Assembly: GCA_016791475.1 (NCBI GenBank) | Contig: JAEUWI010000010.1 | Location: forward strand, 84,352-148,351 | Origin: Candidatus Hydrogenedentota bacterium | GTDB lineage: Bacteria > Hydrogenedentota > Hydrogenedentia > Hydrogenedentales > JAEUWI01 | Reading direction: 5' to 3' | DNA length: 64,000 bases | In this document: positions 2,989 to 27,217 of the stretch, piece after piece | Numbering within the stretch: the stretch's first letter is position 1 | Layout: the number at the start of each line of letters is the position of its first letter | Translations under genes and position numbers: made by a program | The notes under the pieces: model-generated | Database searches by the model: none | The model's input: only the letters and a program-made list of their open reading frames with translations | Told to the model about the DNA's origin: nothing

Positions 2989-5900
2989 CTACCCGGCGCG
3001 CTTCGAAGAGCGTCGCTGCCCCAGCAACAAGCCACCCAGCGTCAGCGCCACCACCACGGCATTCCCCCAGGGCCATGTGCCCGCGCTATCCACCGGTCCG
3101 CATCCCAGCCCCTTGGCGGGCATGCCCGTCCCGGAAATCGCCGCAGTCAACAGACCTCCGGGGTCACCCGAAAAGGTGATCGCGGCGGCGTAGGCCGTGT
3201 CGTCCCGGGGCGAGAAGCGCACAAGAAACTGGTGCGTTTCGCCGTGGCCGAGTTTGTAGCTCGCCTCACCGATCAGCGCGAATACGCCGGTCGCGTCGCG
3301 GAGTTCCGCCGTGCCGATCAGGCGTTCGCCGCCCTCGTTGGTAATGGTGATCCGCCGTTCCACCGACTCGTTGACCCGGACCTCGCCCAAGTCGATCGTC
3401 TCGTCGATGGCGGGGCTGCTGGCGAAAATCGGGGGCTTGAGTGACTCCAGCGCCACCACCGTGCCCAGTCGGGAAACGCTTGCGGACAGGGTTCCGGACT
3501 CCGACAGCGCGCCTTCCGTATCGGCCGAGGACCACGAACCGCCCCCGGGTACAACCGTGAGGCCGCTCGTATCGTCCGAAAGGACCGATACGCCGTTAAC
3601 GAAAAAGGTAGCCTGATCCTCCGGAGAGAAATCGAGCCGATTGAGCAACAAAGACACAGGCCGCGCAGCCAGACGGGCCACGCTTACCGGGGCAAACTCG
3701 GGTGCGCCGATATCGCGGACGATAACTTCCACGGCGATCCATGGGGTACCGCTAACCGCGTCCTCGGGGAGATCTTCAATCCCTTCCGCCTGCTGGCGGG
3801 TAAACAACGCCTCGGGACCGCACGCGATGGCGGCAATGAGAATCGCTTCCTCACCGTCCTCAGCCAGGCCATGGGGTACGGTAATGTTGACGCGCTGCTG
3901 CGCGTTGGCTGGGTTTACCAATGTGGCCTCAATATCGCGGCCGGGGATGTTCGCCCCCCGCCACGCGTGGAGCAACACACTGCGGTCACAACCCACGCTG
4001 GTGACTGTGCGTTCCCAGCGCGCCCCGTCGTTGAAGAGCTCCTCGAAGGGGAAGTCGAGGTAACCATTGTCGTCCGCATCCGTGCCGTTGCGGATCTCAA
4101 ATGTGACATCGTCGGATTGCACGGACTGCCCGGTGCTCACGAGGGTGGCGGTCACGCGGACACGGTAGGCCGTATCTACGGGAAGGGTGAAGACCGCCGG
4201 GGCGTTGCCGCGGATCTGCTTGCTGAACTCCGAAGATTCCATCTTCCGGATGGATGGCGCCGAGGCCCGACCAAAGTCATCGGCGTTCTGGAGCTCTTCA
4301 GGGGTGATATCGCCGGAACGATCAACGTCCAGATTATCGAATCGAACTTGGGAGAGTCCGGGCAGCAGATCGCGAAGTTCCGCCAGGTCCAGCGTCACGC
4401 TGCTGTCCGAGTCGAGAGACTGGAAGTTTTCCAGCAGGAAGCCGGGAAGATCCTCTTCTGCCTCAAGCTCGTCGCGGGTAAGCACGCCGTTGCCGTTGAG
4501 GTCGAGCAGGTCGTAACGGAGCTGATCGATGTCGAGCGCGGTGGCCAGGGTCTCGGCGACGGAAAGTCCCGTGCTGTTGTCCGTATTCAGCACCGCGAAA
4601 TCGGCCAGCAGGGCGGAGGCGATATCCGAGAGTATGACGGCGGCTTCGAGTTCCTCCGTGGAAAGCTGGCCATTTCCGTCAAAATCGAGCGTGGTGAACC
4701 GTGCGCTGGTGAGGCCGATACGGCTGGATGCCACTTCCGACTCGCCGAGCGTGCCATTGAAGTCGGCATCCAGCGCATCGAAATTCTGCAGGAAATACTC
4801 GGCCAGATCCGTGATAAGGATGCTCTCCGCGCCGATATCAAAACTGAATTCGATATCGTCGGCGTTGCAGGCGCCCTGAATATTCACGTCCGCCTCGGCA
4901 TTGAAGGTCACGTCGAGCACCGATTCGCCGGGCGGGGCCAGGAGGTCGCCCGTGGGCTGGATCAGGCGGACACCGTCTTCGCGGACGACACAGACAACCT
5001 GAGATTCCAGCTCGCGCCGCGAGAGTCCGGGGTTAAGATCCAGCGCTTCAAACGTCGCAGTCGTCAACGCCGAGAGTGAATCGGGCAGTTCGTCCAGCGT
5101 CAGGCTTCCGCTGTCGTCCTCGTCGAGCGATTCGAAGTTCTCCCGGAGGTAGTCCAGATCGCCCAGGAGGAGAATCGCCGTTTGGAGCTCCGAAGGGGAC
5201 AGCGCCATGGCGGGCTCTAAGTCCATGTAGTCATAGGCCGCCTCGGTCAGTCCGGGCACGCGGGTTCGGGCTTCGGCCAGCGTGAGCAGACCGTCCCCGT
5301 CGCCATCGGCCAGATCGAAATTGTCGAAGAGGGTCTGGGCCGCCGCCGTAAATCCGATGCCCCCCTGTATTTCCGCGAGGGAGATCTCGACCTCGAGATT
5401 GAGCGAATCGAAGCGCTCCGGGGTGAAACCGGGGAGGAGGACGAGGGCCTCGTCCAGGTCGAGGATCCCATCCCGATTCGCATCGATGTTTTCAAAGTTG
5501 TCGAGGAGTACCTCGGCCGCCACCGCATTGTCCTCGTCGTCGGGCTGATCGAGGATCGTGACGCCGAAGGCCCGTTCAAAGGTCTGGCCCTGCGGATCCC
5601 GGCTCCGCACCAGGACGGTGTACTCGCTGCGGGTCTCAAAATCGAAGACCACCCGGCTCACCAACTGATTCGCCACAATGCCGAAGAACTCGTTGTCCAC
5701 AAAATCATCGTCGTCGGTGGACGGATCGTCGGGGACGAGGCTGTAAAGGTGGAGATCGCCGAGATCGGGATCCGCCGTGGAGAAGCGGCCAATTACCGTG
5801 TCCAGCACCTGATTCTCCAGGATCGTGTTGCCGTCCAGAGTAATGCTCGTCGGGGGATCGTTCTCCCGCGCAACATCGATTCGAAGATTCCACACGTTGC

Positions 5901-8900
5901 TGTCGATGTTCCCATCGCGCACCGTCACGGGCACAAAGAGCACGCCATTGAAGTTTCGGTTCGGAATTATGGAATTGCCGTCCCGTGTATAGTTCGCGTC
6001 GGCGGGCAGCGGCTGGAAGGACAGGGTAACCTCGTCCGGGAAGTCCAGAAGGGGCGCGTCAACGATCAGGTTGTCCAGAATAATCGTCACGGGCGTGTCT
6101 TCGTTCGTTGCGACGGGATTCTGCCCCGTGATGCGCGGCGTGCGATTTCCGGTGCCGAAAAGGCTGACCTTGGATACGATGGGCGTGCCCTGACCCTGCT
6201 GGTTCGCCTCGACCCGGAGCGTGCCGACTTTGGCGCCTTCGGTCGACGGGTCGAACACAATACGGACAAGGCGGGACTGAGCCGTCTCCAGGATGTCCTC
6301 GCCCGAGTCCGACAGCATTTCAAAGGCGCACGTTGCGTTGATTTCTTCGGCGGTCAGGCCGCCGCTTGCGTCCGTGTCCAGCGTGGAAAACTGGGAGAGG
6401 AGCGAAACGGCGAGCACGGACTCCACGTTGCCCAGTTCCTGTCTCGAAAGCTCCTCATCGCCGTCTTCATCAATGGCGGCGAAGCGTCCGGGCGTCAACA
6501 GCGGAACGAAAACTTCGATCTCACCGGCGGTCAACGCCTCGTCTCGCGTGGCGTCTAGACCGGTGAAATCCACCTGGAGTTGCGTCGCGAGAAGCGCGAG
6601 TTTCAAACGCTCTTCGAGCTCGATCCGGCTCAGAACACCATCGCCATCGCCATCGAGATCCAGGAACTCCAGTTCGGTAAGGTCGGGAAGGATACTCTGC
6701 GCTTCAGTGAAGTCGAGGCCTTCGGGGAGGCTCGTGTCGAAGTCATCAAAGCTGTTCAGGAGGCTTTCGGCGAAGCCGGCCAGCCGTATGGCGGCGCTCA
6801 ACTCGGCGGCTTCGAGGTCCCCCGAAGAGTCGCCGTCCAGCGCCTCGAATCGCGGGTCGGTCAGGAAGGGGAACTGGCGATCCATCTCCTCGGGACTGAT
6901 GTCCAGCGATGAATCGGCATCGAGGGCGGCGAATCGGCTGATGATCTCTTCGGCGAGATCAAAGAGGTCGATGGCGTCCTCCAATTCACGGCGGAGCCCC
7001 ACCCCCCGGCTCAACGCGCCGTCGCCATTGATATCCAGCTCGTCGAAGCGATCCTGGGTCATTACAGGGAAGATGTCGGGGCCGCAGGCCAGGCTCACAC
7101 TGTCCAGCGTAAGGTCGCCCAGGCCGTCGTTAATGATGCTGACGGACTGGGGGTTGCTGGGTCCCGCGAGAAGATTGCGCTTCCCGAAATCGAGTGAGCC
7201 CGGCGTCACGCGGATGTCGCTGTCCAGCGCGCGCCCGGAGAGGTTTACGTCAAGCGCGCCGTCATCGGGGTCGTCCGATTCCACGCGCAGGCTGGCCCGT
7301 TTGTTGCCGATGGAGCGCGGGTCGAATGCCACGGCGATCAGTCGTGTCTGGCCGGGGGCAAGCGTGGCCTCGTCCGTGTCGCTGACGATGGTGAAATCGC
7401 TCAGAGACGCGCCCTCCAGACCCACAAAGCCAAGCGTCAGATTCGCTGTGGCGGTGGCGATGTTGGTAATCTCCACGATGCGGGTGGCGGTGGGGCCATC
7501 GTCGATATCTTGATCGCCGAAGTCGACGGTGAGGATCTCCGGTTCAATGGCGAGCACCGGAACAGCTCTGACGCTCGTCTGGGTCGCGTCCGCCGCCGTG
7601 TTGATCGTCTCCGGGTCGTCTGACACGACGGGCGCGTGGTTCTCGCCGTCCGCGACGCCCTGATAGCGAATCACGTTCGTGCCGGCGCGCAGGACGGGGT
7701 TGATTTCCACGGTGAAGGTTATGGTGATCGTTGGTCCATTGGTGAAGACCGGATTGCGCCCATTCAGGGAACCCAGGTTAAGCAGGAGTTCCGACCCGTC
7801 GCCTTCGTTGGTCCGCGCATTGCCATTGACCAGGATGGAGTCCTCGTCGAGCGTGACGCGCGCGTCGCCCGTGTCCAGCGCGTTGAACTGCGCCTCGGTC
7901 AACGCGAAAAGAGAGCCGCTCAACTCCGCGCTGGACAGGCCGGCGCTTTCATCCACATCCAGTACCGAGAAGTTACCCAGGAGCGCGGCGGCCGTGTCGC
8001 TCAGGGGATCGCCCCCGTCCACCAGCCCGAGTTCCAGTTCGGAAATCTCGCTGTCCCGGAAAGGCACCCGGTAGAACAGGTTCAGCGCGCCAAGGTTGCC
8101 CCGATTCTCGATGGTGACCGTATACTGGATGGTATCGCCGGGTTGCTTCTCCTCGTTGCGCGTGATGTCGTCACCCTGCCGCACCACCAGCGCCGGCGCC
8201 GCAACGATGGGTGTTACCGTTGGCGCGGGGCGTACAATATTGCCGTCGCCGTCCACTTCGATGATGTCCGATCCTTCGATCACCACGGCCGCCGGGTCGT
8301 CACTGAGAATCGGATCGGCCCCGTCCGGGCGCTCTTCAAAGTCCAGCGAACCCTGGCTGGCCAGAAACGCGGTGCCCGGGGGAAGAGGATTAACAACGGC
8401 GACATCAAAAGTGATCGTGGCCGTGCTGCCGAGGCTCCCCGCTCCCTGGATGCCGCCCAGATTTACAGTGAGCGCGCCCGCTTCGAGAATTACCACGGCT
8501 CCCGGCGTCGAAGCCGTCACGGAGTCTTCCAGGAGACTGCCATTCGCGATCGCCGGTTGCGTATAGGTGACGTTGTTTGCACCGCCGTTGCCGAGGTTGG
8601 ATAGGTCCACCGTATAGCGAATCGTATCGCCGGGGTTGGCCACCCCATCCGCGTTCGCATCAAATCGGAGCGCGTCGGTGTTGATAGCGCTCAGTGCGAT
8701 CTCCGTTGTGATCGCGGTGCAGATGTCCTCATCCGGTGTCGCGTTGGCGAAATTCACCTCGGGATTGTCGGGCTCACCGAAGAAGAGGCCGCGGGTGCAA
8801 ATTTGCTCCCGGCCCTCCGCGGGGAAGGGAGCGTTCACGGAAACCGTATAGCGGATGGTAACGGAGTCGCCCAGCGGCAGCGTTCCCACATTGATCGAAA

Positions 8901-11900
8901 TTCCGCCCGCGCCGCTGCCGACGATGGCGCCCAGCGATGTGGTGACACTTTCGGGAAGCAGCGTGGAGTTTGCGTCGGGCGTATCGCTGAAGAAGACCCC
9001 GCGCGCATCCGAAGGGCCGCTGTTCGTGGCCGTCACGGTGTAGGCGATAAAGTCCCCCGGCTGCGCCGTATCGCGGTCCGCCGTCATGGTAACGGTGAGG
9101 GAAGCTTCGGGCGCCAGGGTTGCACTGTTGGTGCGGGTGTTGCTCGATGCGTCCGTCTCGAAAACCAGCGCGGGGGCAAGCACCGAACCCGACACATTCA
9201 GCGCGCCCGTGGCGGCGGGGTCCACTTCGGCAACCAGCACATACTCGACTGTTTCGCCCGAGGCGAGATCCACGGTTTCATTGATGGCGCCGTTGCCGCT
9301 GGCGCCGCACGCGTCACAGGTCCAGGTTGCGTTCTGGAGCGCCGCGGGCAGCACCGTGGCGACTTCGGCCCCGTCGACCGGGCTCGGACCCAGATTGCGC
9401 ACCTGGAAGGTGTAGGTCACATTTTCGCCGGGAACCACGACGTTGGGGTCCCGGTCGATGAACAACTGCAGGTCGGCCACGGGACGAATTGTGACGCTGT
9501 TGGACTGTACGAGCGCACCACTGACAATACCGTCGCCCGGCGTCACCTGGAAATACCAGACTTCGCCCTCGACCGTCGAGGCGCCGGGAACCTCGGAGAG
9601 GTTGTTGAATGCCGGCTGAATCACATCGTTGCGGAACCACCGGATGAGCGACCCCGATTCAGCGTTCCCGTCCACATCCAAGTAGTTGTAGGTGGCGCTC
9701 AGGTTCTCATTGCGGAGCGGTTCTGCGGGAGAGAGGGTGGCGTTGCTCGCCACGGGCGCGTCATTCACCGGAGTCAGGGTGATCGCGACGGAGGCGGAAT
9801 CGTTGAGGTCGCCGCCCGCTCCGGTGTTGCCCTGATCGCTCACGAGCAGGCTGAGGGTGTCACTGCCGCTGACGTCGGCGTTGCCGCGATACCGCATTCC
9901 GTTCAGGGCCGCGTTCACATCGCTCAGCGATCCCCGGAAGGTTATGGCCGAGTCCCCCGTGCCCGTTGCGGGAGCGTCGATGGTGAGGCCCGCGGTGCCC
10001 GGCAGTGTCAGAAGGCCCTTCGTTACGGCGAGGGACACCTCCAGGGCGCCATCGTTGGTTTCGTCCACATCCACGTCGCTGATAGAGACGTTGCCGCCGA
10101 AGACCAGGTCGGTGTCTTCGTTCACCGTCCTGGCGCCCGGCACGGAAAGCTCCGGGGCGTCGTTTACGGCCAGTATTGTAATCGGCACCGCGCCGGTGAC
10201 ATTTTCGCCACCGCCATTGCCGGTAAATCCTTGATCGTTGACCGTGATGGAAAGGGACTCCGCCCCACCGGACGCTGTGTTGACGTTGGCGTCGGGCTGG
10301 TAGGAAAGCCCGTTCATCGCCGTGTTCAACGCGGAGGCGACCCCGCTGAACGTCACGGAGGTGTCATTGATTCCGCTGCCGCTGACCAGAGAGATGCCAC
10401 TGGTCGTCGCCAGACTGAGGCGACCCCGCGCAACGGAGAGGGTGACGCGGAGTTGCCCCGGCGTTTCGGCCACGTCCGGATCGGAAACCGTCACAGCGTT
10501 GCTGTTGGCGGCGCCGAAGGTCAGGCCGCTTTCTTCGTTGATGGTCTGTGTGCCGGGCAGGCTGAGGCTCGGGTCGTCGTTCAGCGCCGTGATGTTCAGG
10601 GGAACCGTGCCCGTCGCAATCTGGCTACCGCCCTGGCCCGTATTGCCCTGATCGTTCGCGCTGACGCTGAGGGTCTGATTATTGCGGTTGTTCAAAGCCG
10701 ACGTGAAGCGCAGCGAGGGCAGGGTGGTATTCAACTCGCCGAGCGTTCCGGTCAGGGTTATGGCGTTGGTATTGTTGTTCCCGATGGCCAGCGCCTGGAC
10801 ACCGCCCGATATCGTGCCGTCCACCTGAAGCCGCCCGGCGCCCACGCCCAGCGAAACCACCAGCGTGCCACCGCCGGCGTCCACATCGCTCACGGAAATT
10901 CCGGCAATCGAAGCCGTAGCGTCCTCATTGATCGACTGTGCGCCGGGGAGCGCCAGTTGGGGCGCATTGTTCACGGCGTCCACCGTGATATCGACCGTCG
11001 CGCTGTCCGTGGCCGCGCCGCCGCTCCCCGAATTTCCCTGATCGTCCACGGAGATGGAGAGGGTGTCGCTTCCATTAAAGTTCAAGTCGCCACGGTAAAC
11101 GAGGCCGTCCAGCGCCGCTTCGAGCGCGGCCAGCGTACCCGTCATGTTCAGTGTCGCGGTACCGTTGCCGCTGCTCGCAAGCAGGCCCGCGCCATTGGCG
11201 AGGGTGAGTGTGCCGTGCAGCACCGAAATACTGGCAACCAATTCCCCGGGCGCTTCGTCGGCGTCCGGATCATCAATAACAATCGCGTTGCCGTCAGTGG
11301 CGCTGAAGGGAAAGTTGACGTTTTCGTCGGCCGTCTGCGTAGCGGGCACGGTGATCGCCGGCGGGTCATTGACGGCGTTCACGGTCAGTGAAACGCTCTG
11401 AGATATATCGCTGCCCCCGCCCGCTCCGGTATTGCCCAGGTCATTCAGGGTGGCGCTCAGCGTATCGGGCCCGTTGTAGTGCTGGGAACCGCGATAAGTC
11501 AGGCCGTTCAGGGCATTGTTCACGTTGGTCAATGGGCCAACCAGTACGACCGCGGCCGTAGCGTTGCCGGTGACGGAGGTCAGGCCCGACGTTGCCCCCA
11601 GAGTGACAGTACCGCTCCCCACGCCGAGTGATACCCGGACGGTGCCGCCGGGGTTGTTCTCCTGGACGTCCACATCCGCCACGGTGATGCGATTGGCATT
11701 CGCGGCGTTGAAGACCAGGTTCGTGTCTTCATTCACCGACTGCGCGCCGGGGAAATTGCTGAAGGAAGGGTTGTCGTTCTGCGGCGTGATGGTCAGCGTA
11801 ATCGTCTTCGAGTCCGACTGGGCCGCACCGCCGGTGTTGCCATTGTCGTTCGCGCCCACGGTGAGCGTCTGGGTGCTGACCAGGTTGGTGGCCGTAGCAA

Positions 11901-14900
11901 AAGTGACGGTCGGCAGCGTATTGTTCAGTTGGGTCAAGGTTCCCGCGAGCGTTACCGAGCTTGAATTGTTGCCGGTGATATTTCCCGCCGTTACACCGCC
12001 CGAGGCCGCCGTGTTTACGGCGATGCGGCCCTGTGCAACGCCCAGCGTCACCGTCAGGGATCCCCCGCCGGCGTCGGGATCGGCAATACTGATGCCCGAG
12101 ATCCCCGTGGTTGTATCCTCATTCACCGACTGACCGCCCGGCACCGTGACCACGGGCGGATTGTTGGTGGATGCAATGCTCACATCGATGGTGCCACTGT
12201 CGGAGAGGACCCCGCCCGCACCGGTGTTCCCCTTGTCGCTCACGGTCACCGTCAGGGTTTCCGCGCCGTTCAGCAGGGCCGTAGGGGTATAGGTGAGACC
12301 GTTTAAGGCCAGCGTGGCGTTGGCGATGGTGGCGTCAAAGCTTACGCTGGCGCTGCTGTTACCCGTAAGATTGACCAGGCCCGCGGTGGAGGCCAGGGTG
12401 AAAGTGCCCTTCGTCGCCGCAAGGCTCACGTTCACGCCCCCCGTCGGCAGGGCGGTCTCGTCGGCGTCCACATCCGCCACCCCAATGGGATTGCCGCTCG
12501 CCGTACTGAATACAAGTGACGACCCTTCATCCACATTCTGTGTCGCGCCGGGCAGGGTCAAAACAGGGCCGTCGTTCACCGCATTGACCGTCACCGTAAC
12601 GGTGGCGGCGTTTGACGTGGCGGCCCGGTTGTCATTCACCGTGTATTGGAACGTATTCGTGCCGTTGAAGTTCCCGGTGGGCGTATAGGTGATCCGGCCG
12701 TTCGTTGCATTGACCGAAGTCGACCCATTGGCCGGAGCGCTGGTTACCGTGACGCTTGCCGGCGTCAGCGTGCCATCGGTGTCGCTGTCGTTCAGCAATA
12801 CATCGATGGTAACCGCCGCACCTTCGTTGGTGTTGCCGCTGTCCGCGACCGCCGTGGGCCGATCATTGACGGTAACCTGGAACGTATCCTCAACAAAGTC
12901 GCTCCCGCTGTCCGTCGCACGGATCGTGATCGTGCCGGTACCCGGCGTGTTTGCCGGGTACGCGATGGTCAGGTTGCTCCCCGCGATGGTGGGCGTGCCG
13001 TTGAAAATACTGCCTGTCGTGCTCGCGACCGTGTAGGTCAGCCCGCCCGCGCCGTCCTCCGCGTCGTCGAAGCTGGAGAGCAGACTGATGACGCTGTTGG
13101 GAGCGCTCTCGTTGACCAGCACATCGGCAATGGGTGTCGCCACCGTCGGCGTGAGATTGATGATGATATTGAAGGTCGCGTTGGAGGTCGTGGCGTTCTC
13201 GTCGTCCTTGACGTTGAACGTGAAACTGTCGGATTGCGTCGCCGTGCCATCGTGGGTGTACGTCAGCGAATTGGTGTCAATGGCGGCCTGGGTGAACGAA
13301 GCGCCCAGGTTCAGCGTGCCATTCGCGGGACCCGTGACCACGGTATAGGTCAAATTGGCCGCAATATCGTCCGTGTCGCTGTACGACAGCAACGCGCTGG
13401 AAATCGTGGCCGCGTCGCCCTGATTGAGCGTAAGGCTGTTGTTCTGCGCCGAGGTGGGCTTATCATTGTCGGAGGTCACCGTGTGGGCAAGGGTGTTTGT
13501 CGCACCGCTGATTGCCGTGGGCGATCCGTTGGTCGACGTGCTGAACGTAACCCGATTCTCCACACCGCCGGATCGAGACGAGAATCCGCCGCCATGGGTA
13601 TTGTCGAGCACGCGGATACTGATCGAGGTCACCACCCCTCCAAAATTGGCGGTCGGCACGAATCGCAGCCGGGTGGCCGTATCAAGCGCAAGGGATGACG
13701 CCGCGGAAACGCTCCCAATCGGAAACCAGACCGAACCGGCACCCGGATCCGGCGAGTATTGCCAGACCCCTTCCGAGCCGAGCTGCGGATTGGTCACGAC
13801 CGCGATTCCCGAGAAAGTTCCCTCCACATCACTGAAGGAGCCCCCGAACAAAGCGCTGATGGTAGCCCCCGGCGGATTGGAAGTGTCCTCGGCGATATCC
13901 GCCAGCGTCGCGTTCCCCGCCGTCGGGGCGTCGTTCACCGCCGTAATGCTGATGGTGATATTGGAGGCGCTCGAATCGGACACCCCTCCGGGATCCACCA
14001 CGACATAGGGAATCGTCACGGCGGTATCGCGGTTCGCGGCGGGCGTGAAGCGCAGATCCAGGTTGCCACCCGTCAGGGAGAGAATCGTCCCTGAAGCTCC
14101 GAGCACAATCGCGGAACCATCGCCCTGGGCAACCGTGCCGCCCGTGAAAGCCAGCAGGCGGATAGCGTCCGGTGTCTCGCCCGTGTCAACATCGATCAAA
14201 GTCGTCGGCGTCACGCGGATGTTGGCCGCACCGGGTGCCGCCGCATCTTCCGTAATGCTCACCGCGCCGCCGCCGGGCGACGTCGCCGTGATATTGCCGC
14301 CCGCCGTGGGCGCATCGGCGCCGGGCGTGATATTAACGGTTACGGTGGATTGCGCGGAATCGCTGATGCCGCCCGGATCGACCACGACGTAGCTGATGGT
14401 CGCAGCCGTATCCCGGTTGGCCGTCGGGGTGAAGCGAAGATCAAGGTTGCCGGAAGACAGGGCGAGAACCGTTCCCGAAGCCCCCAGCGTGATTCCCCCG
14501 CCGCCGCTCTGGGTTACCGTTCCGCCGGTGACGCTGATCAGCCGGACGGATGTGGGCGTCTGGCCATTGTCCGGATCGCTCAGGGTCGTGGGGGTAACGC
14601 GTATGTTAGCCGCGCCCGGCGCGGAAGCATCTTCCGCTATCGACGTTGCGCCGCCGCCGGGTGCGGTGGCGGTCACGTTGCCCCCTGCGCTCGGCGGGTC
14701 CGCGCTTGCCGTAATATTGACCGTAATGTTGGAGGACGACGAGTCGTTCACACCCGAAGGGTCCACCACGACATAGGGAATGGTGACCGCCGTGTCACGG
14801 TTGGCCGCGGGCGTAAAGCGCAGGTTGACCCCCCCCGAGGACAGGGTAAGGGCCGTGCCACCGGCGCCCAGGGTAATCGCCGCACCGTTCGATTGCGCCA

Positions 14901-15576
14901 CCGTGCCGCCCGTGAACGCCAGAAGACGGATCGCCGTGGGTGGGTCGTCCACCGTATCGGGATCGCTCAGCGTGGCCGGCGTTACCCGAATGTTGGCCGC
15001 GACCGGAGCCGCCGCGTCCTCGCTGATGCTGATCAAGCCACCGCCCGTGTTTGTCGCCGTCACATTCCCACCCGCGTCCGGCGCGTCGTCGTCCGCCGGC
15101 GAAATATCGATGGTAATGGTGGAGGAGGTGGAGTCGGCGCCGCCGCCCTCGTCCACCACCCGGTACTGGATGGTCGCCGCCGTATCCCGGTCGGGGTCCG
15201 GCGTGAAGCGTGCGTCAAAACCACCGGCGGTCAATGCTAGAACCGTGCCGGAAGTGCTTACGGTGATGGCCGACCCGTCCCCCTGGGCAATCGTGCCGCC
15301 GGTGATGGATACCAGGCGGATAGAGTCGGGCGTTTCGCCCATGTCGGCGTCGCTGAGGGTTGTCGGTGTAAAGCGGACGTTCGCGGCGCCGGGCGCCGGG
15401 TCGTCCTCGGTGATCGTCGTCGCTCCTCCGCCGGGAGCCGTGGCCGTAATATCGCCGCCTGGAGAGGGCGGGGCGGCCAGCGCGGGGGAGACGGCCAGAC
15501 ACACGCCAATCCCCAAAGCCAGACAGCAAACCAGGCGCGGTTCAAACAGCCGCCGCCCACCGGGCAATAGAATCAT
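2989..15576 (-). CDS. Giant exported repeat protein: Ig/cadherin-like, DUF11, ASPM-like and EF-hand arrays, C-terminal anchor
   Basis: This gene encodes 4195 residues. A signal peptide covers about residues 1-35. Four similar repeats of about 127 residues follow (about 38-548), then cadherin/VCBS-type domains, then seven repeats that start with a P-G-x-Q-x-V-N-E-D-like motif (about 1005-1935). DUF11 domains begin near 2034 and an ASPM/choice-of-anchor-D domain near 2674. EF-hand-like arrays (D-x-D-x-D/S-G, paired with L-x-x-x-x-F-x-x-L-D) occupy about 2836-3085, 3350-3525 and 3587-3767. A last ASPM-like domain is followed by G-C-G-P, a hydrophobic segment and an R-R-S-S-K-R tail, which looks like a surface-sorting anchor. 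The start is supported by GGAG six bases before the ATG. The role is probably a Ca2+-stabilised surface adhesin or scaffold (inference). Confidence 0.85.
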   Translation of the reverse strand: MILLPGGRRLFEPRLVCCLALGIGVCLAVSPALAAPPSPGGDITATAPGGGATTITEDDPAPGAANVRFTPTTLSDADMGETPDSIRLVSITGGTIAQGDGSAITVSTSGTVLALTAGGFDARFTPDPDRDTAATIQYRVVDEGGGADSTSSTITIDISPADDDAPDAGGNVTATNTGGGLISISEDAAAPVAANIRVTPATLSDPDTVDDPPTAIRLLAFTGGTVAQSNGAAITLGAGGTALTLSSGGVNLRFTPAANRDTAVTIPYVVVDPSGVNDSSSSNITVNITASADPPSAGGNVTATAPGGGATSIAEDASAPGAANIRVTPTTLSDPDNGQTPTSVRLISVTGGTVTQSGGGGITLGASGTVLALSSGNLDLRFTPTANRDTAATISYVVVDPGGISDSAQSTVTVNITPGADAPTAGGNITATSPGGGAVSITEDAAAPGAANIRVTPTTLIDVDTGETPDAIRLLAFTGGTVAQGDGSAIVLGASGTILSLTGGNLDLRFTPAANRDTAVTIPYVVVDPGGVSDSSASNITISITAVNDAPTAGNATLADIAEDTSNPPGATISALFGGSFSDVEGTFSGIAVVTNPQLGSEGVWQYSPDPGAGSVWFPIGSVSAASSLALDTATRLRFVPTANFGGVVTSISIRVLDNTHGGGFSSRSGGVENRVTFSTSTNGSPTAISGATNTLAHTVTSDNDKPTSAQNNSLTLNQGDAATISSALLSYSDTDDIAANLTYTVVTGPANGTLNLGASFTQAAIDTNSLTYTHDGTATQSDSFTFNVKDDENATTSNATFNIIINLTPTVATPIADVLVNESAPNSVISLLSSFDDAEDGAGGLTYTVASTTGSIFNGTPTIAGSNLTIAYPANTPGTGTITIRATDSGSDFVEDTFQVTVNDRPTAVADSGNTNEGAAVTIDVLLNDSDTDGTLTPASVTVTSAPANGSTSVNATNGRITYTPTGNFNGTNTFQYTVNDNRAATSNAATVTVTVNAVNDGPVLTLPGATQNVDEGSSLVFSTASGNPIGVADVDADETALPTGGVNVSLAATKGTFTLASTAGLVNLTGNSSASVSFDATIANATLALNGLTYTPTALLNGAETLTVTVSDKGNTGAGGVLSDSGTIDVSIASTNNPPVVTVPGGQSVNEDTTTGISGISIADPDAGGGSLTVTLGVAQGRIAVNTAASGGVTAGNITGNNSSSVTLAGTLTQLNNTLPTVTFATATNLVSTQTLTVGANDNGNTGGAAQSDSKTITLTITPQNDNPSFSNFPGAQSVNEDTNLVFNAANANRITVADVDVQENNPGGTVRVSLGVGSGTVTLGATSGLTSVTGNATAAVVLVGPLTNVNNALNGLTYRGSQHYNGPDTLSATLNDLGNTGAGGGSDISQSVSLTVNAVNDPPAITVPATQTADENVNFPFSATDGNAIVIDDPDADEAPGELVASISVLHGTLTLANGAGLLASSGNGTATLNMTGTLAALEAALDGLVYRGDLNFNGSDTLSISVDDQGNSGSGGAATDSATVDITVDAVNNAPQLALPGAQSINEDATASIAGISVSDVDAGGGTLVVSLGVGAGRLQVDGTISGGVQALAIGNNNTNAITLTGTLGELNTTLPSLRFTSALNNRNNQTLSVSANDQGNTGQGGSQIATGTVPLNITALNDDPSLSLPGTQTINEESGLTFGAANSNAVTVSDPDVAETPGQLRVTLSVARGRLSLATTSGISLVSGSGINDTSVTFSGVASALNTAMNGLSYQPDANVNTASGGAESLSITVNDQGFTGNGGGENVTGAVPITILAVNDAPELSVPGARTVNEDTDLVFGGNVSISDVDVDETNDGALEVSLAVTKGLLTLPGTAGLTIDAPATGTGDSAITFRGSLSDVNAALNGMRYRGNADVSGSDTLSLLVSDQGNTGAGGDLNDSASVAITLTPVNDAPVASNATLSPAEPLRNENLSATYNYLDVDGNAESGSLIRWFRNDVIQPAFNNLSEVPGASTVEGEVWYFQVTPGDGIVSGALVQSNSVTIRPVADLQLFIDRDPNVVVPGENVTYTFQVRNLGPSPVDGAEVATVLPAALQNATWTCDACGASGNGAINETVDLASGETVEYVLVAEVDPAATGALNVSGSVLAPALVFETDASSNTRTNSATLAPEASLTVTMTADRDTAQPGDFIAYTVTATNSGPSDARGVFFSDTPDANSTLLPESVTTSLGAIVGSGAGGISINVGTLPLGDSVTIRYTVSVNAPFPAEGREQICTRGLFFGEPDNPEVNFANATPDEDICTAITTEIALSAINTDALRFDANADGVANPGDTIRYTVDLSNLGNGGANNVTYTQPAIANGSLLEDSVTASTPGAVVILEAGALTVNLGGIQGAGSLGSTATITFDVAVVNPLPPGTAFLASQGSLDFEERPDGADPILSDDPAAVVIEGSDIIEVDGDGNIVRPAPTVTPIVAAPALVVRQGDDITRNEEKQPGDTIQYTVTIENRGNLGALNLFYRVPFRDSEISELELGLVDGGDPLSDTAAALLGNFSVLDVDESAGLSSAELSGSLFALTEAQFNALDTGDARVTLDEDSILVNGNARTNEGDGSELLLNLGSLNGRNPVFTNGPTITITFTVEINPVLRAGTNVIRYQGVADGENHAPVVSDDPETINTAADATQTSVRAVPVLAIEPEILTVDFGDQDIDDGPTATRIVEITNIATATANLTLGFVGLEGASLSDFTIVSDTDEATLAPGQTRLIAVAFDPRSIGNKRASLRVESDDPDDGALDVNLSGRALDSDIRVTPGSLDFGKRNLLAGPSNPQSVSIINDGLGDLTLDSVSLACGPDIFPVMTQDRFDELDINGDGALSRGVGLRRELEDAIDLFDLAEEIISRFAALDADSSLDISPEEMDRQFPFLTDPRFEALDGDSSGDLEAAELSAAIRLAGFAESLLNSFDDFDTSLPEGLDFTEAQSILPDLTELEFLDLDGDGDGVLSRIELEERLKLALLATQLQVDFTGLDATRDEALTAGEIEVFVPLLTPGRFAAIDEDGDEELSRQELGNVESVLAVSLLSQFSTLDTDASGGLTAEEINATCAFEMLSDSGEDILETAQSRLVRIVFDPSTEGAKVGTLRVEANQQGQGTPIVSKVSLFGTGNRTPRITGQNPVATNEDTPVTIILDNLIVDAPLLDFPDEVTLSFQPLPADANYTRDGNSIIPNRNFNGVLFVPVTVRDGNIDSNVWNLRIDVARENDPPTSITLDGNTILENQVLDTVIGRFSTADPDLGDLHLYSLVPDDPSTDDDDFVDNEFFGIVANQLVSRVVFDFETRSEYTVLVRSRDPQGQTFERAFGVTILDQPDDEDNAVAAEVLLDNFENIDANRDGILDLDEALVLLPGFTPERFDSLNLEVEISLAEIQGGIGFTAAAQTLFDNFDLADGDGDGLLTLAEARTRVPGLTEAAYDYMDLEPAMALSPSELQTAILLLGDLDYLRENFESLDEDDSGSLTLDELPDSLSALTTATFEALDLNPGLSRRELESQVVCVVREDGVRLIQPTGDLLAPPGESVLDVTFNAEADVNIQGACNADDIEFSFDIGAESILITDLAEYFLQNFDALDADFNGTLGESEVASSRIGLTSARFTTLDFDGNGQLSTEELEAAVILSDIASALLADFAVLNTDNSTGLSVAETLATALDIDQLRYDLLDLNGNGVLTRDELEAEEDLPGFLLENFQSLDSDSSVTLDLAELRDLLPGLSQVRFDNLDVDRSGDITPEELQNADDFGRASAPSIRKMESSEFSKQIRGNAPAVFTLPVDTAYRVRVTATLVSTGQSVQSDDVTFEIRNGTDADDNGYLDFPFEELFNDGARWERTVTSVGCDRSVLLHAWRGANIPGRDIEATLVNPANAQQRVNITVPHGLAEDGEEAILIAAIACGPEALFTRQQAEGIEDLPEDAVSGTPWIAVEVIVRDIGAPEFAPVSVARLAARPVSLLLNRLDFSPEDQATFFVNGVSVLSDDTSGLTVVPGGGSWSSADTEGALSESGTLSASVSRLGTVVALESLKPPIFASSPAIDETIDLGEVRVNESVERRITITNEGGERLIGTAELRDATGVFALIGEASYKLGHGETHQFLVRFSPRDDTAYAAAITFSGDPGGLLTAAISGTGMPAKGLGCGPVDSAGTWPWGNAVVVALTLGGLLLGQRRSSKRAG

Positions 15577-17712: not shown

Positions 17713-19182
17713 ATGGCTGAAGCACTTGACGAAGGCGCATTGGAAGTAACCCAGATCGACAGCTTGATAGACTCTCAATTCAAGCCGAAGTCTTCCGCCG
17801 CCCGCGAAACCATACAGAAATCGATCAGCACCCTGGCGCGCCAGGCCCTCAAAGAGGGCGAAGTCGATCCCGCGGATCCCACGGCCACGATCAAATTCAT
17901 TATCAAGAGTCTGGATGACAAGCTCTCCGCGCAGGTGAACCAGATCATCCACCATGAGGATTTCCAGCGACTGGAAGGTTCGTGGCGCGGTCTCCAGTAT
18001 ATGGTCGCCAATACCGAGACGGACGAGCAACTGAAGATTCGCGTGCTGAACATCTCCAAGAAGGAAATTGGAAAGGTTCTCAAGAAATACAAAGGCACCG
18101 CCTGGGAACAGAGCCCCCTCTTCAAGAAGATGTACGAAGAAGAATACGGCACCCCCGGCGGCGAGCCCTTCGGCTGTATCGTGGGTGACTATGAATTCGA
18201 TCACAGCGCCCCCGATGTGGAAATTCTCCAGGGCCTTTCCCAGGTCGCGGCCGCGGCCCACACCCCCTTCATCGCCGCCGCCTCGCCAAAGCTGATGAAC
18301 ATGGATAGCTGGCAGGAACTCGCCAACCCGAGCGACATCAACAAGCTCTTCACCTCGCCGGAGTACGCCCCCTGGCGCTCCCTCCGCGAGTCGGAAGACG
18401 CGCGTTATCTGGGGCTTACCCTGCCGCGCTTCCTGTCCCGACTGCCCTACGGCGCCCAGACCAACCCAGTGGACGATTTCGATTTCGAGGAAGTGGTCAA
18501 TAACGACCAGTCCAATTTCACCTGGGCCAACGCGGCCTATGCCATGGGCGCAAACATCACTCGCTCCTTCAAGCTCTATGGCTGGTGTTCCCAGATCCGC
18601 GGCGTGGAAAGCGGCGGCTCCGTCGAGGGACTGCCCTGCTACACCTTTCCGACCGACGACGGCGGCGTCGACATGACCTGCCCGACCGAAATCGCCATCA
18701 CGGACCGCCGTGAAGCCGAGTTGGCCAAGTGCGGCCTGATGCCCCTGTCCTACTTCAAGAATACCGACTACGCCGTCTTCATCGGCGCACAGTCCCTTCA
18801 GAAGCCCCAGGAATACGACGATCCGGATGCGACGGCCAACGCGAACCTCAGCGCGCGCCTGCCCTATCTGTTTTCGACCTGCCGCTTCGCCCACTACCTT
18901 AAGTGCATCGTGCGCGACAAGGTGGGCTCTTTCGCGGAACGATCCGACATGGAAACCTGGCTCAACAACTGGATCCGCCAGTACGTCGAACCCGATCCCG
19001 CAAACGCGTCCAACGAAGCCAAAGCGCGTCGCCCCCTGGCCGCCGCCGAAGTCGTCGTGGCCGATGTGGAAGGCAATCCCGGCTATTACTCCGCCGTGTT
19101 TTACCTGCGCCCCCACTACCAGTTGGAAGGCCTGTCCGCCTCGTTGCGGCTCGTTTCCAAGCTCCCCACGGAAAAGGGCTGA
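17713..19182 (+). CDS. tssC: T6SS contractile sheath large subunit TssC (VipB)
   Basis: This is 489 residues, the standard VipB/ImpC length. Family features include an N-terminal helix ending in I-D-S-L-I-D-S-Q-F, then H-H-E-D-F-Q-R-L-E-G-S-W-R-G-L near residue 80, and L-P-R-F-L-S-R-L-P-Y-G near residue 237. It forms the bulk of the sheath, with TssB. It starts two bases after tssB with an overlapping ribosome site (GGAGG at the tssB end). A GC-rich hairpin lies between this gene and hcp. Confidence 0.96.
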   Translation: MAEALDEGALEVTQIDSLIDSQFKPKSSAARETIQKSISTLARQALKEGEVDPADPTATIKFIIKSLDDKLSAQVNQIIHHEDFQRLEGSWRGLQYMVANTETDEQLKIRVLNISKKEIGKVLKKYKGTAWEQSPLFKKMYEEEYGTPGGEPFGCIVGDYEFDHSAPDVEILQGLSQVAAAAHTPFIAAASPKLMNMDSWQELANPSDINKLFTSPEYAPWRSLRESEDARYLGLTLPRFLSRLPYGAQTNPVDDFDFEEVVNNDQSNFTWANAAYAMGANITRSFKLYGWCSQIRGVESGGSVEGLPCYTFPTDDGGVDMTCPTEIAITDRREAELAKCGLMPLSYFKNTDYAVFIGAQSLQKPQEYDDPDATANANLSARLPYLFSTCRFAHYLKCIVRDKVGSFAERSDMETWLNNWIRQYVEPDPANASNEAKARRPLAAAEVVVADVEGNPGYYSAVFYLRPHYQLEGLSASLRLVSKLPTEKG

Positions 19183-19219
19183 GCGCGACAACGTCCAAGG
19201 TTTTAGTTCAGTTCCGGGG

Positions 19220-19242
19220 CGGGCCGCCCAGGCGGCGGCCCG
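19220..19242 (+). other. GC-rich hairpin between tssC and hcp
   Basis: A 9-bp all-GC stem (19220-19228 with 19234-19242) closes a 5-base loop and has no T tract after it. It sits in the 165-base gap before hcp. It may protect mRNA ends or partly attenuate, giving hcp its own expression level; this is inferred from position. Confidence 0.45.
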
Positions 19243-19347
19243 TTCCGGGTTAAGAAATAAATGCCCATTCAAACTGACCAAAGTGAAACGTGTTGCGTCG
19301 GGGTGGCAATACCGCGCGCAACCTAATCCAACAAGGAGCTATACGGC

Positions 19348-19839
19348 ATGGCAAACGCATTCTTCATGAAGATTGACGGGATCACGGGTGAATCCGAAGA
19401 CGAAAGTCACAAGGGCTGGCTTGAAATCACCGAGTTCGGCCAGGAAATGGCCCACGACATTGAAGGCGGCGGCACGCCCTCCGCAGCCGGCGGCTTCACC
19501 ACCGGCGGCGCCACCCTGGAAGTCATGAGCTTCAACAAGGCCATGGACCGCTCCAGCGTCCAGCTCTTTCAGTACTGTCTGACCGCCAAAGTGATTCCCA
19601 CCATCGTGATCGAGGCCGTCCGCCCCACGGAAAAGGCCGAGGTCTATTTCCGGATCACCCTCACCAACAGCATCATCGCCAGCATCAACACCACCGGCAG
19701 CGATGGTGAACTGCCCACGGAAGAAGGCTCTATCGCCTTCACCACCATCAAGTGGGAATACACCATGGTGAAGCCGGACGGCAAGATGGGCGATACCTTC
19801 AGCTCGACCTGGAACCGCCTGACCAACCGCCAGACCTGA
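19348..19839 (+). CDS. hcp: T6SS inner-tube protein Hcp (TssD)
   Basis: The protein has 163 residues, the normal Hcp length. It opens with A-F-F-M-K-I-D-G-I-T-G-E-S and contains the S-F-N-K-A-M-D-R-S-S-V-Q-L stretch and a C-terminal I-K-W-E-Y region typical of Hcp. Hexamers of Hcp stack into the secreted tube and chaperone some effectors. AAGGAG lies upstream of the ATG. Unlike its tightly packed neighbours, hcp has about 165-170-base gaps on both sides, each with a strong hairpin, as expected for a structural protein needed in high amounts. Confidence 0.95.
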   Translation: MANAFFMKIDGITGESEDESHKGWLEITEFGQEMAHDIEGGGTPSAAGGFTTGGATLEVMSFNKAMDRSSVQLFQYCLTAKVIPTIVIEAVRPTEKAEVYFRITLTNSIIASINTTGSDGELPTEEGSIAFTTIKWEYTMVKPDGKMGDTFSSTWNRLTNRQT

Positions 19840-19870
19840 TTTACAGCGATTTGAACATTCATGACCGCGA

Positions 19871-19896
19871 CCGGGCTTGCCGTGGGGCAAGCCCGG
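19871..19896 (+). other. Hairpin downstream of hcp
   Basis: An 11-bp perfect stem (19871-19881 with 19886-19896) closes a 4-base loop. There is no T tract, so it is a weak terminator at best. It may stabilise the 3' end of an hcp transcript. Confidence 0.5.
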
Positions 19897-20011
19897 CCGC
19901 GTTGCAATTCCACGAAGGGCGTGGTTCGGGACGCTGCGGTCCCGCGCTCGCTCTACCGATCCCCGAATTTAGGCGCTTTCCTGCCTTGCGTTCGAAAATG
20001 AGGTCACTTCG

Positions 20012-20509
20012 TTGTACGTCCGCTACCTGCCATCACTGATGGATCGCCTGACCGACCAGGAGCCGGACCGGCGACTGGAGGCTCCCCGCCCGCAGGTCAT
20101 GAGCTTTCAAGAGTACCGGGCCGGTTTTCAGCGCGATCTCATGCGGCTCCTCTCCTATGGTCTTCAGCCCGATTCAGCCGAGTTTGCAGGTCATCCCGAG
20201 GTCCAGAGTTCCGTCCTCAACTACGGTATGCCCAACCTCCTCGGCATGGCCGACGTGGCCATGAAGCCCCAGTTGGTGGAGCAGGCCATTCGCGAAGCCA
20301 TCGCGCGATTCGAGCCTCGGGTGAATCGCGAAACGCTCCGCGTGCGCGTCTCCCCGGTGGAATCCGCCGGCGACACCGCCATGCGCAATCTGGATATTGA
20401 AATCAACGCCGAGCTGTGGGCAAAGCCCTATTCGGAGAATGTATACATTCTCACCAGCGTCGACATGCATAAGGCCAGCGTGGTCGTGAAGGAGTGGCGC
20501 AATGGATAG
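20012..20509 (+). CDS. tssE: T6SS baseplate protein TssE (gp25-like)
   Basis: This 165-residue protein has the GPW_gp25/TssE fold signature: L-P-S-L-M-D-R-L-T-D at the N-terminus, S-V-L-N-Y-G-M-P-N-L near residue 70, and A-I-A-R-F-E-P-R-V near residue 94. TssE is a lysozyme-like gp25 homologue of the baseplate wedge. The start is TTG at 20012 with GAGG eight bases upstream. The alternative ATG at 20039 would cut off the family-conserved L-P-S-L segment. Its 3' end overlaps tssF by 8 bases. Confidence 0.92.
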   Translation: MYVRYLPSLMDRLTDQEPDRRLEAPRPQVMSFQEYRAGFQRDLMRLLSYGLQPDSAEFAGHPEVQSSVLNYGMPNLLGMADVAMKPQLVEQAIREAIARFEPRVNRETLRVRVSPVESAGDTAMRNLDIEINAELWAKPYSENVYILTSVDMHKASVVVKEWRNG

Positions 20510-22382
20510 GATCTCCAACAGCCGCCGACGCCTGGACTACTACAACGAAGAGTTGCAGTATCTTCGGGAGATGGGGGAGGTCTTCGCACGGGAGAACCCC
20601 AAAGTCGCCGGGCGCCTCGGCCTCGATTCCTTCGAATGCGCCGACCCCTACGTCGAACGGCTGCTCGAAGGCGTCGCTTTTCTGACCGCCCGCGTCCGCA
20701 TGAAGCTGGACGACGAATTCCCCAACTTCACCCAAAGCCTCGTGGAGACGGTCTACCCTCATTACCTTTGCCCCACACCATCCATGACCGTGGTGCAGTT
20801 TCAGCCCGATTTCGCCGAGCCCTCCCTGGCCGAAGGGGTTACCATTCCCCGGGACACGGTGCTCCGCAGCGGTGGCGGCATTGGCGACGACTTCTCCTGC
20901 CAGTACCGCACGGGGCACGACGTGACGCTGTGGCCGATTATACTCACCGAGGCGGAATACTACACCCGGGAAATCAGCTCCCTGGGCCTGCCCGACCGGC
21001 GCGATGTGAGCGCCGGCATCCGGCTCCGACTCAAGACCATGGGGGGGCTGCTCTTCAGCGATATTGACCTGAACAGGCTCACGCTGTTTATTCGCGGCGG
21101 CGGCGATGTCGGCGCCCGGCTCTACGAAGCCATTTTTTCTCACGGCGTCGGCGCGGTCATGCGGCCCACCGGCAGCGCCCCGGCCTGGCAGCGCACGCTC
21201 TCTGCGGAACGGATTCGTCAGGTGGGTTTCGCCGATGAAGAACATCTCCTGCCCTATGGCTCCCGCTCCTTTCAGGGCTATCGTCTGCTCCACGAGTACT
21301 TCGCATTTCCGCAGCGCTACATGTTCTTCGAGATCGGCGGATTAAACAAGTTCATTGGCAGCGCCGTCACCACAGAGCTCGACATTTTTATTCTGCTCAA
21401 GCAGGGCGACCCGCGCCTCGAAAACGAAGTCGCTGCCAATAATTTCGTCCTGAATTGCGCGCCAGCCATCAATCTCTTCCCACTCGAACCGGATCGGGTC
21501 GACGTTTCGGACGCTGTATCGCGCTTCCACGTCGTGGGGGATCGCACCCGCCCACTGGACTTCGAGATCTACCAGATTAACCGAATCACCGGCTACGGAA
21601 CGCACATGGGCGACCGGCAGATTTTCGAGCCCTTCTACGCCGCCAAGGGCTACGATTCCGAAAGTCGCGCCTACTTCTCGACCCACCGGGTTCCCCGCCG
21701 TCTGAGCGAGCGCGAACTGAACCACGGTACCCGCTCGGGTTACGCCGGGAGCGAGGTCTATGTTTCCCTGGTGGACGCGGACGCGGCGCCCTACAACCCA
21801 GAAATCCGCCAGCTTGCCCTCGAAACCCTCTGCACGAACCGGGATCTGCCGCTCCTCATGCAGCCCGGCATGCTGAATTCCGACTTTACCATGGACGCAC
21901 ACGCCCCCGTAGAGGGCGTTCGCATCGTCGCCGGGCCCACATCGCCCCGAAGTTCCCTGGCCGAAGGCGCCTTCACCTGGCGCATTATCAACCACCTCTC
22001 CCTCAACTACCTGTCCCTGATGGACACCGAGGAGGGCGATGCCGCCTCCGCCCTGCGAGAATTGCTCGGGCTCTATGGCGCGGTCTCCGATCCCGGCACT
22101 CGCAAGCAGATCAACAGCCTCCGGCAGGTCCGAAGCGTGCCGATTACGCGCCGCGTTGAAGGACCGGGACAGATCGCCTTCGCCCGGGGCCTCGAAATCC
22201 AGGTGACGATGGAGGAAGAGTCGGTGGAAGGGGCGGGAACCTTCCTCCTCGGCGCGGTCCTCGAACGCTTCTTCGCCAAGCACGTATCGTTGAATTCCTT
22301 CACCGAAACGGTGATTCAAACCCCCGAACAAGGAGAGCTCAAGCGGTGGAAAGCGAGAATGGGACAGCGGAAGCTGGTATAA
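20502..22382 (+). CDS. tssF: T6SS baseplate protein TssF (VasA/ImpG)
   Basis: The protein has 626 residues, the usual TssF size. The N-terminus has Y-Y-N-E-E-L-Q-Y-L-R-E-M-G-E-V-F-A, followed by D-P-Y-V-E-R-L-L-E-G-V-A-F-L-T-A-R near residue 48 and L-V-E-T-V-Y-P-H-Y near residue 82; all three are VasA family landmarks. TssF with TssG and TssE makes the baseplate wedge. It overlaps tssE by 8 bases and tssG by 37 bases. Confidence 0.95.
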   Translation: MDRISNSRRRLDYYNEELQYLREMGEVFARENPKVAGRLGLDSFECADPYVERLLEGVAFLTARVRMKLDDEFPNFTQSLVETVYPHYLCPTPSMTVVQFQPDFAEPSLAEGVTIPRDTVLRSGGGIGDDFSCQYRTGHDVTLWPIILTEAEYYTREISSLGLPDRRDVSAGIRLRLKTMGGLLFSDIDLNRLTLFIRGGGDVGARLYEAIFSHGVGAVMRPTGSAPAWQRTLSAERIRQVGFADEEHLLPYGSRSFQGYRLLHEYFAFPQRYMFFEIGGLNKFIGSAVTTELDIFILLKQGDPRLENEVAANNFVLNCAPAINLFPLEPDRVDVSDAVSRFHVVGDRTRPLDFEIYQINRITGYGTHMGDRQIFEPFYAAKGYDSESRAYFSTHRVPRRLSERELNHGTRSGYAGSEVYVSLVDADAAPYNPEIRQLALETLCTNRDLPLLMQPGMLNSDFTMDAHAPVEGVRIVAGPTSPRSSLAEGAFTWRIINHLSLNYLSLMDTEEGDAASALRELLGLYGAVSDPGTRKQINSLRQVRSVPITRRVEGPGQIAFARGLEIQVTMEEESVEGAGTFLLGAVLERFFAKHVSLNSFTETVIQTPEQGELKRWKARMGQRKLV

Positions 22383-23407
22383 AGAACCGTCTCGCGAAGA
22401 AGCCCGGTTCGGCCAGTTTCTTTCAGGCCATCCGCCGGCTGGAAAGCGAGCGGCCCGGCAAGGCGCGCGTGGGTTATGCGCACCACCTCCACGACGAGGT
22501 CGTGCGCTTCAGTCAGCACATAGGCCTGACCTTCGAGGCGGGCTCCATCGATTCGTTCGAAGAGGGCGAGGGCGGCGCGCCACCCCGCATGAAGGTAAAT
22601 TTTCTCGGCCTTCTCGGGCCCAACGGCCCCATGCCCCTCAACTTCACGGAGTCGATCTACGAGCGCCTCCTTCATGACAAGGACCGGGCCCATCCCGAGT
22701 TCCTGGATGCCTTGCAGAGTCGCATCATTGCCCTGTTCCATCGGAGTTGGGCCGAGTGCCAGATGACCGCGTCCTACGAGCGCACCCGCCATGGCGCATT
22801 CTCCAAATACGTTTCAAGCCTGGTGGGTATCGGCGCGCCGGTCTTCCAGGAGCGTGACTCCATCCGCGACGACGCCAAGCGCTACTACTCCTCGTGGCTC
22901 GCGATGCAGACGCGCAACGCGGAGGGCCTCTGCGCGATACTCGGCGAATACTTCGGAACCCCCGCCGAAGTGGAAGAGTTCATCGGCCAGTGGCTCGACG
23001 TGCCCCATGACTGCCGCTGCCGCCTGGGCGAGACCCGCCTCACCGGAAAGATCGGGCAGAATCTCATCATTGGAAAGCGCTTCTGGGACCGGCAGCAGAA
23101 GTTTCGTATTCGCCTCGGGGCCATGGACTGGCAGCGCTATCTAAGCATGCTGCCTTCCGGCGATCGCCTGGAGCACTTGATCGACTGGGTGCGCAACTAT
23201 GTGGGCGAGGAACTCGAGTGGGACGTCTGCCTGATCCTGCGCCGCGAGGAAGTGCCCCAAATCTGCCTCGGGAGTCAGGGCCAATTGGGCTGGACCACCT
23301 GGCTGAAGGGCAGAAACTATGAGTTTGACCACGATCCCGCGGACTTGCGGATGGATAGAATGACCCTCGTGTCCTGGTTTCGCGAGTCGGCGCGCGCCCG
23401 GGCCTGA
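22346..23407 (+). CDS. tssG: T6SS baseplate protein TssG (VasB/ImpH)
   Basis: This 353-residue protein shows the TssG layout: S-F-F-Q-A-I-R-R-L-E-S near residue 19, F-L-G-L-L-G-P-N-G-P-M-P near residue 87 (the family's conserved G-x-x-G-P-x-G-x-L/M-P block), and a C-terminal half ending in W. It pairs with TssF. The start is a GTG inside the tssF end, with AGGAG about ten bases before it, so its translation probably depends on ribosomes finishing tssF. Confidence 0.94.
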   Translation: MESENGTAEAGIKNRLAKKPGSASFFQAIRRLESERPGKARVGYAHHLHDEVVRFSQHIGLTFEAGSIDSFEEGEGGAPPRMKVNFLGLLGPNGPMPLNFTESIYERLLHDKDRAHPEFLDALQSRIIALFHRSWAECQMTASYERTRHGAFSKYVSSLVGIGAPVFQERDSIRDDAKRYYSSWLAMQTRNAEGLCAILGEYFGTPAEVEEFIGQWLDVPHDCRCRLGETRLTGKIGQNLIIGKRFWDRQQKFRIRLGAMDWQRYLSMLPSGDRLEHLIDWVRNYVGEELEWDVCLILRREEVPQICLGSQGQLGWTTWLKGRNYEFDHDPADLRMDRMTLVSWFRESARARA

Positions 23408-23450
23408 CACACGGGAACGCCCCCAGGAATGAACAGCAGGTAATCCAATC

Positions 23451-25577: not shown

Positions 25578-25632
25578 CGGAAGCGAGTCGTTCAAAAAAA
25601 TACAAAGCACGCAGGGAAGTGGCAAGCCAGGT

Positions 25633-25726
25633 CCATACGACCCATACGACCCATACGACCCATAAGACCCATAAGACCCATAAGACCCATAAGACCCATA
25701 AGACCCATAAGACCCATAAGACCCAT
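25633..25726. repeat. 9-bp tandem minisatellite (10 units)
   Basis: Three copies of CCATACGAC (25633-25659) are followed by seven copies of CCATAAGAC (25660-25722) and a partial CCAT. It lies in the 193-base gap between vgrG and the accessory gene, ending 44 bases before that gene's start. The unit length is a multiple of three, so open frames run through it on both strands (THK, YGS and VLW repeats), but none has a start context or partner sequence typical of a gene. The two unit types in separate blocks suggest expansion by slippage. Confidence 0.95.
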
Positions 25727-25770
25727 CGATCAGGGTTAGCCCCCTGGCCGCGCCAAAGGAATTCAACACC

Positions 25771-26322: not shown

Positions 26323-26349
26323 GAAGGGCGCGAAAGTTGGAGAAATGCC

Positions 26350-26378
26350 TTGACATGGCCTATCGCCCGGTGTGTACC
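26350..26378 (+). promoter_or_regulatory. Possible internal promoter ahead of tssJ
   Basis: A perfect TTGACA (26350-26355) is followed after 17 bases by TGTACC (26373-26378), which matches the -10 consensus only at 3/6. The 199-base gap between the accessory gene and tssJ could hold a second promoter for the membrane-complex genes tssJKLM. Confidence 0.35.
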
Positions 26379-27139: not shown

Positions 27140-27217
27140 GTTCGCGCGCCAAGAACATGCAAGATGACCGGCGGAACGCCCCGAAGGCTCCCCGCGCCCG
27201 GATAGAGAAAGACCACG

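Follow-up and report, generated by a model that had tools for sequence, protein, structure and literature searches.

The window analysed here is a stretch of 64,000 nucleotides from a Candidatus Hydrogenedentota genome (contig JAEUWI010000010.1), and on its reverse strand, at 2989-15576, it carries a real, intact and single open reading frame of 4195 residues. This giant gene is adjoined by a gene for an AnmK kinase (anhydro-N-acetylmuramic acid; 1601-2758) and by type VI secretion genes (VipB sheath, TssF, IcmF-related; 17713-34624), and at 42811-46815 lies the gene for a protein of 1334 aa that has 13 PKD domains. Searches of the 4195-residue protein against Pfam and NCBIfam returned tandem cadherin/Big_9 domains, DUF11 repeats, ASH/choice-of-anchor-D domains and EF-hands, an architecture that appears to be that of a classic large surface protein. 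The EF-hands are no chance resemblance, since Pfam matches EF-hand_6 (E 1.7e-22) and EF-hand_7 (E 2.2e-17) beside the ASH, DUF11 and cadherin-like domains. The C-terminus had no match to any NCBIfam CTERM model, and it is the C-terminal tail together with the domain content that suggests a surface location. Along the protein, the features are as follows:

2989-15576, minus strand: coding sequence of the 4195-aa putative surface protein, with a signal-like N-terminus, cadherin/Big_9 tandem repeats, DUF11, ASH, EF arrays and a C-terminal membrane tail
7612-8214, minus strand: DUF11-type domain probably hosting one EF pair, residues 2455-2655
7840-8010, minus strand: EF pair, residues 2523-2579, probably nested in the DUF11-type domain; its first loop is canonical and its second degenerate
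7219-7563, minus strand: uninterrupted neighbouring ASH/choice-of-anchor-D domain, residues 2672-2786, serving as internal control
7072-7218, minus strand: ASH domain split by array 1, N-terminal portion, residues 2787-2835, containing C2831
6331-7071, minus strand: EF array 1, residues 2836-3082; a second-EF half, three pairs and a first-EF half, 8 EF-hands
6148-6330, minus strand: ASH domain split by array 1, C-terminal portion, residues 3083-3143, containing C3083
5533-5859, minus strand: cadherin-like domain that precedes array 2, residues 3240-3348; its sequence pattern is that of a complete domain
5002-5523, minus strand: EF array 2, residues 3352-3525; lies between domains and comprises three pairs
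4804-5001, minus strand: Ig-like domain split by array 3, N-terminal portion, residues 3526-3591
4273-4803, minus strand: EF array 3, residues 3592-3768; interrupts the Ig-like domain with three pairs at a beta-hairpin turn
4081-4272, minus strand: linker followed by the C-terminal portion of the Ig-like domain that array 3 splits, residues 3769-3832
2992-3114, minus strand: C-terminal tail, residues 4155-4195, with 'GLGCG', a hydrophobic helix and a basic end; surface-sorting-like as read from the sequence

The repeating unit is a 55-residue EF pair with the consensus 'xxAxxLLxxFxxADxxxDGxLSxxEAxxxxPxLTxxxFDxLDxNxDGxLSRxEL' (profile A1), referred to below as the cassette. No curated family names it, the best NCBIfam match lying far below its cut-off, and the Pfam model EF-hand_6 used alone gave no matches genome-wide, whereas the pair profile A1 did find cassettes. 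In the window protein the cassette occupies four places, three of them inside beta-domains (ASH, Ig-like and, probably, DUF11) and the fourth between domains. At array 1, an earlier note on this DNA had described about 250 residues of paired EF-hand units; content and extent were as described, but the register was not, because the array runs as a half-cassette, three pairs and another half. These two half-cassettes may pair with each other across the neck of the insertion.

The same note had proposed that array 1 breaks a beta-sandwich in mid-domain, between 'LACGPDIF' and 'CAFEMLSDSG', and this was borne out. Joining the flanks gave a match to the ASH-type model PF22073 over profile positions 19-111 of 112; left unjoined, the stretch matched only the second half of that model. 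The joined flanks are also 35% identical to the neighbouring uninterrupted ASH domain. Structure prediction pointed the same way. An AlphaFold2 (AF2) model of the site, built from an eight-row alignment (A4) and weak by its mean pLDDT of 57.7, placed beta-strands at model residues 2-47 and 301-358 on either side of helical EF units. With VIA-align, around 100 residues spread over model residues 8-362 matched single ASH/PapD-like domains, among them CEP192 (7ptb; Z 8.8, 2.8 A, 102 aligned) and VesB (4lk4; Z 8.8, 2.8 A, 99 aligned). With Foldseek alone, nothing matched at E 0.001, and the ASH/PapD-like matches thus come from VIA-align. From the profile match and the model we conclude with moderate, not strong, confidence that the flanks of array 1 would form one PapD/ASH-like host fold. 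The array is bracketed by C2831 and C3083, which are invariant across three orthologues and missing from the neighbouring ASH domain; that they might form a disulphide at the neck of array 1 is a guess.

A short EF unit within a DUF11 domain, likewise claimed before, found support from profiles. The joined flanks matched DUF7927 over 14-122 of 132 positions (E 7.6e-4, which is below the curated cut-off in strength), and with the pair left in the match shrank to 14-33. The AF2 model of this site (mean pLDDT 49.9) has flanks mostly under pLDDT 50 and is uninformative on them.

Two further arrays had been said to interrupt domains, and this proved correct for array 3 only. Array 3 sits in the Ig-like domain, as direct comparison shows. 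Proteins homologous to the C-terminal part of the window protein occur throughout the order. In about 17 of them, which have the Ig domain upstream, lack EF-hands and come from other Hydrogenedentota genera of several families, this domain is uninterrupted. In ten of these that were aligned, a short hairpin turn ('DG' or similar) takes the place of the three EF pairs; four copies from the same genus as the window have EF-hands at the site. By these empty-site comparisons, array 3 is nested inside the Ig-like domain. The linker that follows it (4225-4272, residues 3769-3784) is only about 6% identical between G000 and the orthologues, against 60-70% in its surroundings. Array 2, in contrast, stands between the cadherin-like domain and the Ig domain that follows, ahead of the latter's first strand. 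That cadherin-like domain (residues 3240-3348) had no Pfam match at E 0.001, the Cadherin_5 match being confined to the domain that precedes it (residues 3144-3234).

These data also bear on the possibility that nesting is only apparent and that complete, separate domains lie on both sides of every EF block, the arrangement against which the original proposal had been set. Array 2, by sequence pattern, does separate whole domains. At the Ig site, however, the empty-site homologues speak against such an arrangement, as do, at the ASH site, the nearly full-length match of the joined flanks to ASH-type profiles and the single sandwich of the model; for the protein as a whole we regard it as very improbable.

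The cassette recurs in many other proteins and genomes. Profile A1 matched 56 times in the window's genome, and 56 of the 68 genomes searched over the phylum Hydrogenedentota had matches; at a looser threshold the cassette was found in 39 of 40 near relatives. Some 40 copies in this genome lie outside the window, and about 30 of them are C-terminal, standing before a GC...TM...RR tail that is often preceded by a (GE)n spacer, an arrangement also seen in other genomes. The EF pair thus appears to be an abundant lineage module of Hydrogenedentota surface proteins; in the literature searched, no paper was found that treats Hydrogenedentota and EF-hand together. Some proteins carry the cassette in larger numbers or other settings: L080 (G003:C474) strings together about 20 EF pairs, with a GCC...TM tail behind them, and in the 1811-aa lipoprotein-like L077 (G005:C87) EF pairs alternate with a non-EF repeat of about 130 residues that looks CHRD-like by eye. 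Genome G000 also contains four loci for CPBP-family proteases (L202, L203, L204 and L205), and it is only a suggestion that such proteases could be the sorting enzymes for GC...TM...RR tails.

Dockerins are Ca2+-binding, EF-derived pairs appended to secreted proteins. The EF pairs described here could similarly be dockerin-like or calmodulin-like docking modules that bring a partner to the cell surface, and Dockerin_1 matches are indeed present elsewhere in this genome. Yet these matches (PF00404) are restricted to three other loci, and the genome and Pfam searches returned none in the window protein, so an identity as dockerin type I was rejected. The cassette, moreover, consists of full helix-loop-helix hands that match EF-hand_5/6/7 and calmodulin chains, and no partner was identified. 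We consider a docking role quite unlikely.

Among the 22 EF loops of the window protein, 14 are canonical (12 residues, with ligands at positions 1, 3, 5 and 12), one is near-canonical and seven are degenerate or shortened. Since these seven lack the full ligand set, not every EF-hand would bind Ca2+, and some hands of array 2 have probably long been dead, because two of its loops are cut to 10 residues in all three orthologues. Across these orthologues, loop positions 1 and 12 are conserved at 100% and 97%, respectively, while the non-ligand positions 2, 4, 7, 9, 10 and 11 are conserved at 33-52%. This conservation of ligands strongly implies that the arrays bind Ca2+.

The three orthologues have diverged considerably (dN 0.22-0.40, dS near-saturated), and arrays 2 and 3 nonetheless align without a gap, while array 1 differs in length by one codon. 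The arrays are under purifying selection, which is weaker on arrays 1 and 2 than on the ASH and cadherin-like host domains. Arrays 1 and 2 also evolve faster than the surrounding domains, and a weakly constrained spacer would fit this as well. The arrays might be near-neutral passengers, a common acidic helical module taken up by insertion-tolerant beta-domain loops and kept without a specific role. The degenerate or shortened loops, the fast divergence of arrays 1 and 2 relative to their host domains and the 6% identity of the linker after array 3 between G000 and the orthologues are all in line with that account. It is, however, at odds with ligand positions that are nearly invariant while non-ligand positions vary, and with some 600 array residues that have hardly changed in length despite near-saturated synonymous sites, and we hold it to be rather unlikely.

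The cassette had also been proposed to behave as a mobile protein module that enters the loops of beta domains. Its recurrence, its entry into loops, the empty sites and an insert found in G002 only (see below) are in favour of this, but movement at the present time is not. Nearly every internal cassette of the window protein most resembles the orthologous cassette at its own position (0.51-0.76 identity), in contrast to 0.37-0.48 identity with its neighbours in the same protein, and no DNA tandem repeats were found. With no near-identical copies, no tandem repeats and stable array lengths, an active mobile DNA element was rejected for the window protein. The cassette appears instead to be a module shuffled in evolution, that is, by domain shuffling.

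Nesting is seen in other proteins as well. An EF array splits another region of two proteins that we call PhoPQ-related-like (L063 and L161, from G021 and G026), a label taken from their sequence with no profile match behind it. A beta-helix protein has an old, degenerate EF pair common to G000, G001, G002 and the outgroup G005. In G002 only, a second, two-pair array lies in a loop of the beta-helix, which is uninterrupted in the two congeners G000 and G001 and in the outgroup. By parsimony, this array would be a gain in G002. The insert (L177, G002:C76) is flanked by an in-frame direct repeat of 8 nt, GGCACCGA, with the copies 411 nt apart. A target duplication was rejected as its origin, since among pairs of short segments drawn at random from the gene 4% match equally well, and so was a donor copy within G002, where the best match is only 42% identical. 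In a more dynamic version of events, EF-pair cassettes would still be placed in frame into the loops of Hydrogenedentota surface proteins, their presence differing among congeneric species, and specific recombination with short target duplications could underlie the process; we judge this unlikely.

The reading that we favour, with a probability of roughly 0.72, is that the EF pair is a lineage-typical, probably Ca2+-binding extracellular block which was inserted by domain shuffling into beta-domain loops and kept under selection as a branch or spacer of a stalk. The data show directly that arrays lie within domains, that relatives have empty sites, that different folds were entered repeatedly, that one insertion is lineage-specific and that the ligands are conserved. 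Ca2+ binding itself, rigidity and surface location are what we infer. Usually, the cassette would contribute to the stalk from a position beside a membrane-anchoring or sorting tail. A few large proteins would have received copies or whole arrays in frame, by ordinary domain shuffling, in the surface loops of their beta domains. The host fold would survive this as the two strands flanking the loop are spatially close, and beta-domain loops may tolerate EF pairs because the host fold already holds these strands together. After insertion, array length would become fixed and the Ca2+ ligands would come under selection. Most likely, the arrays would fold upon meeting extracellular Ca2+, and the folded arrays would most likely act as compact elements, rigid and acidic, that branch off sideways from the stalk or serve as spacers on it.

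Accounts of how a domain becomes nested within another, and persists there, are usually guesswork based on deep homologies. In the present case a single small module occurs in several folds, with filled and empty versions within one order and even within one genus. The inserted unit should allow simple assays of Ca2+ binding and stability, so that direct tests of how nested domains arise and become fixed would be feasible. In addition, the results describe a surface-protein module not characterised before, in a phylum about which little is known.

Several known systems resemble parts of this picture. The tails that follow cassettes often read GCGC...TM...RR and resemble the tripartite MYXO-CTERM (PMC11980579); GlyGly-CTERM was compared too (PMC3237569). 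The resemblance is one of pattern alone, as four C-terminal cassette tails had no match to an NCBIfam CTERM model. The cassette itself is like the EF-hand pair domain (EF-hand_7/EF-hand_5/EF-hand_6; calmodulin-type) in being a helix-loop-helix pair with canonical DxDxDG...E loops, and a profile search with it finds calmodulin chains. It differs in sitting inside the loops of extracellular beta domains and before a sorting-like tail. The Dx[DN]xDG calcium loop, according to the available text of PMC3123361, occurs in many folds, mostly extracellular, and the same text recalls that a Ca2+ loop put between two beta-strands of CD2 created a new Ca2+ site. For PERCAL, the available text of PMC3396595 describes variable numbers of Ca2+-binding insertions in bacterial animal-peroxidase domains, and homologues without them exist. 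In neither paper does the available text describe a lineage with whole EF pairs nested in several of its folds. PERCAL and the cassette share Ca2+-binding insertions within a conserved domain and insert-free homologues, and the Dx[DN]xDG loops share the ligand loop. As far as these texts go, however, the Dx[DN]xDG loop is bare in each fold and PERCAL is an 11-residue Gly/Asp motif of one domain family, whereas the cassette is a complete helix-loop-helix pair that enters several folds as whole EF pairs or arrays.
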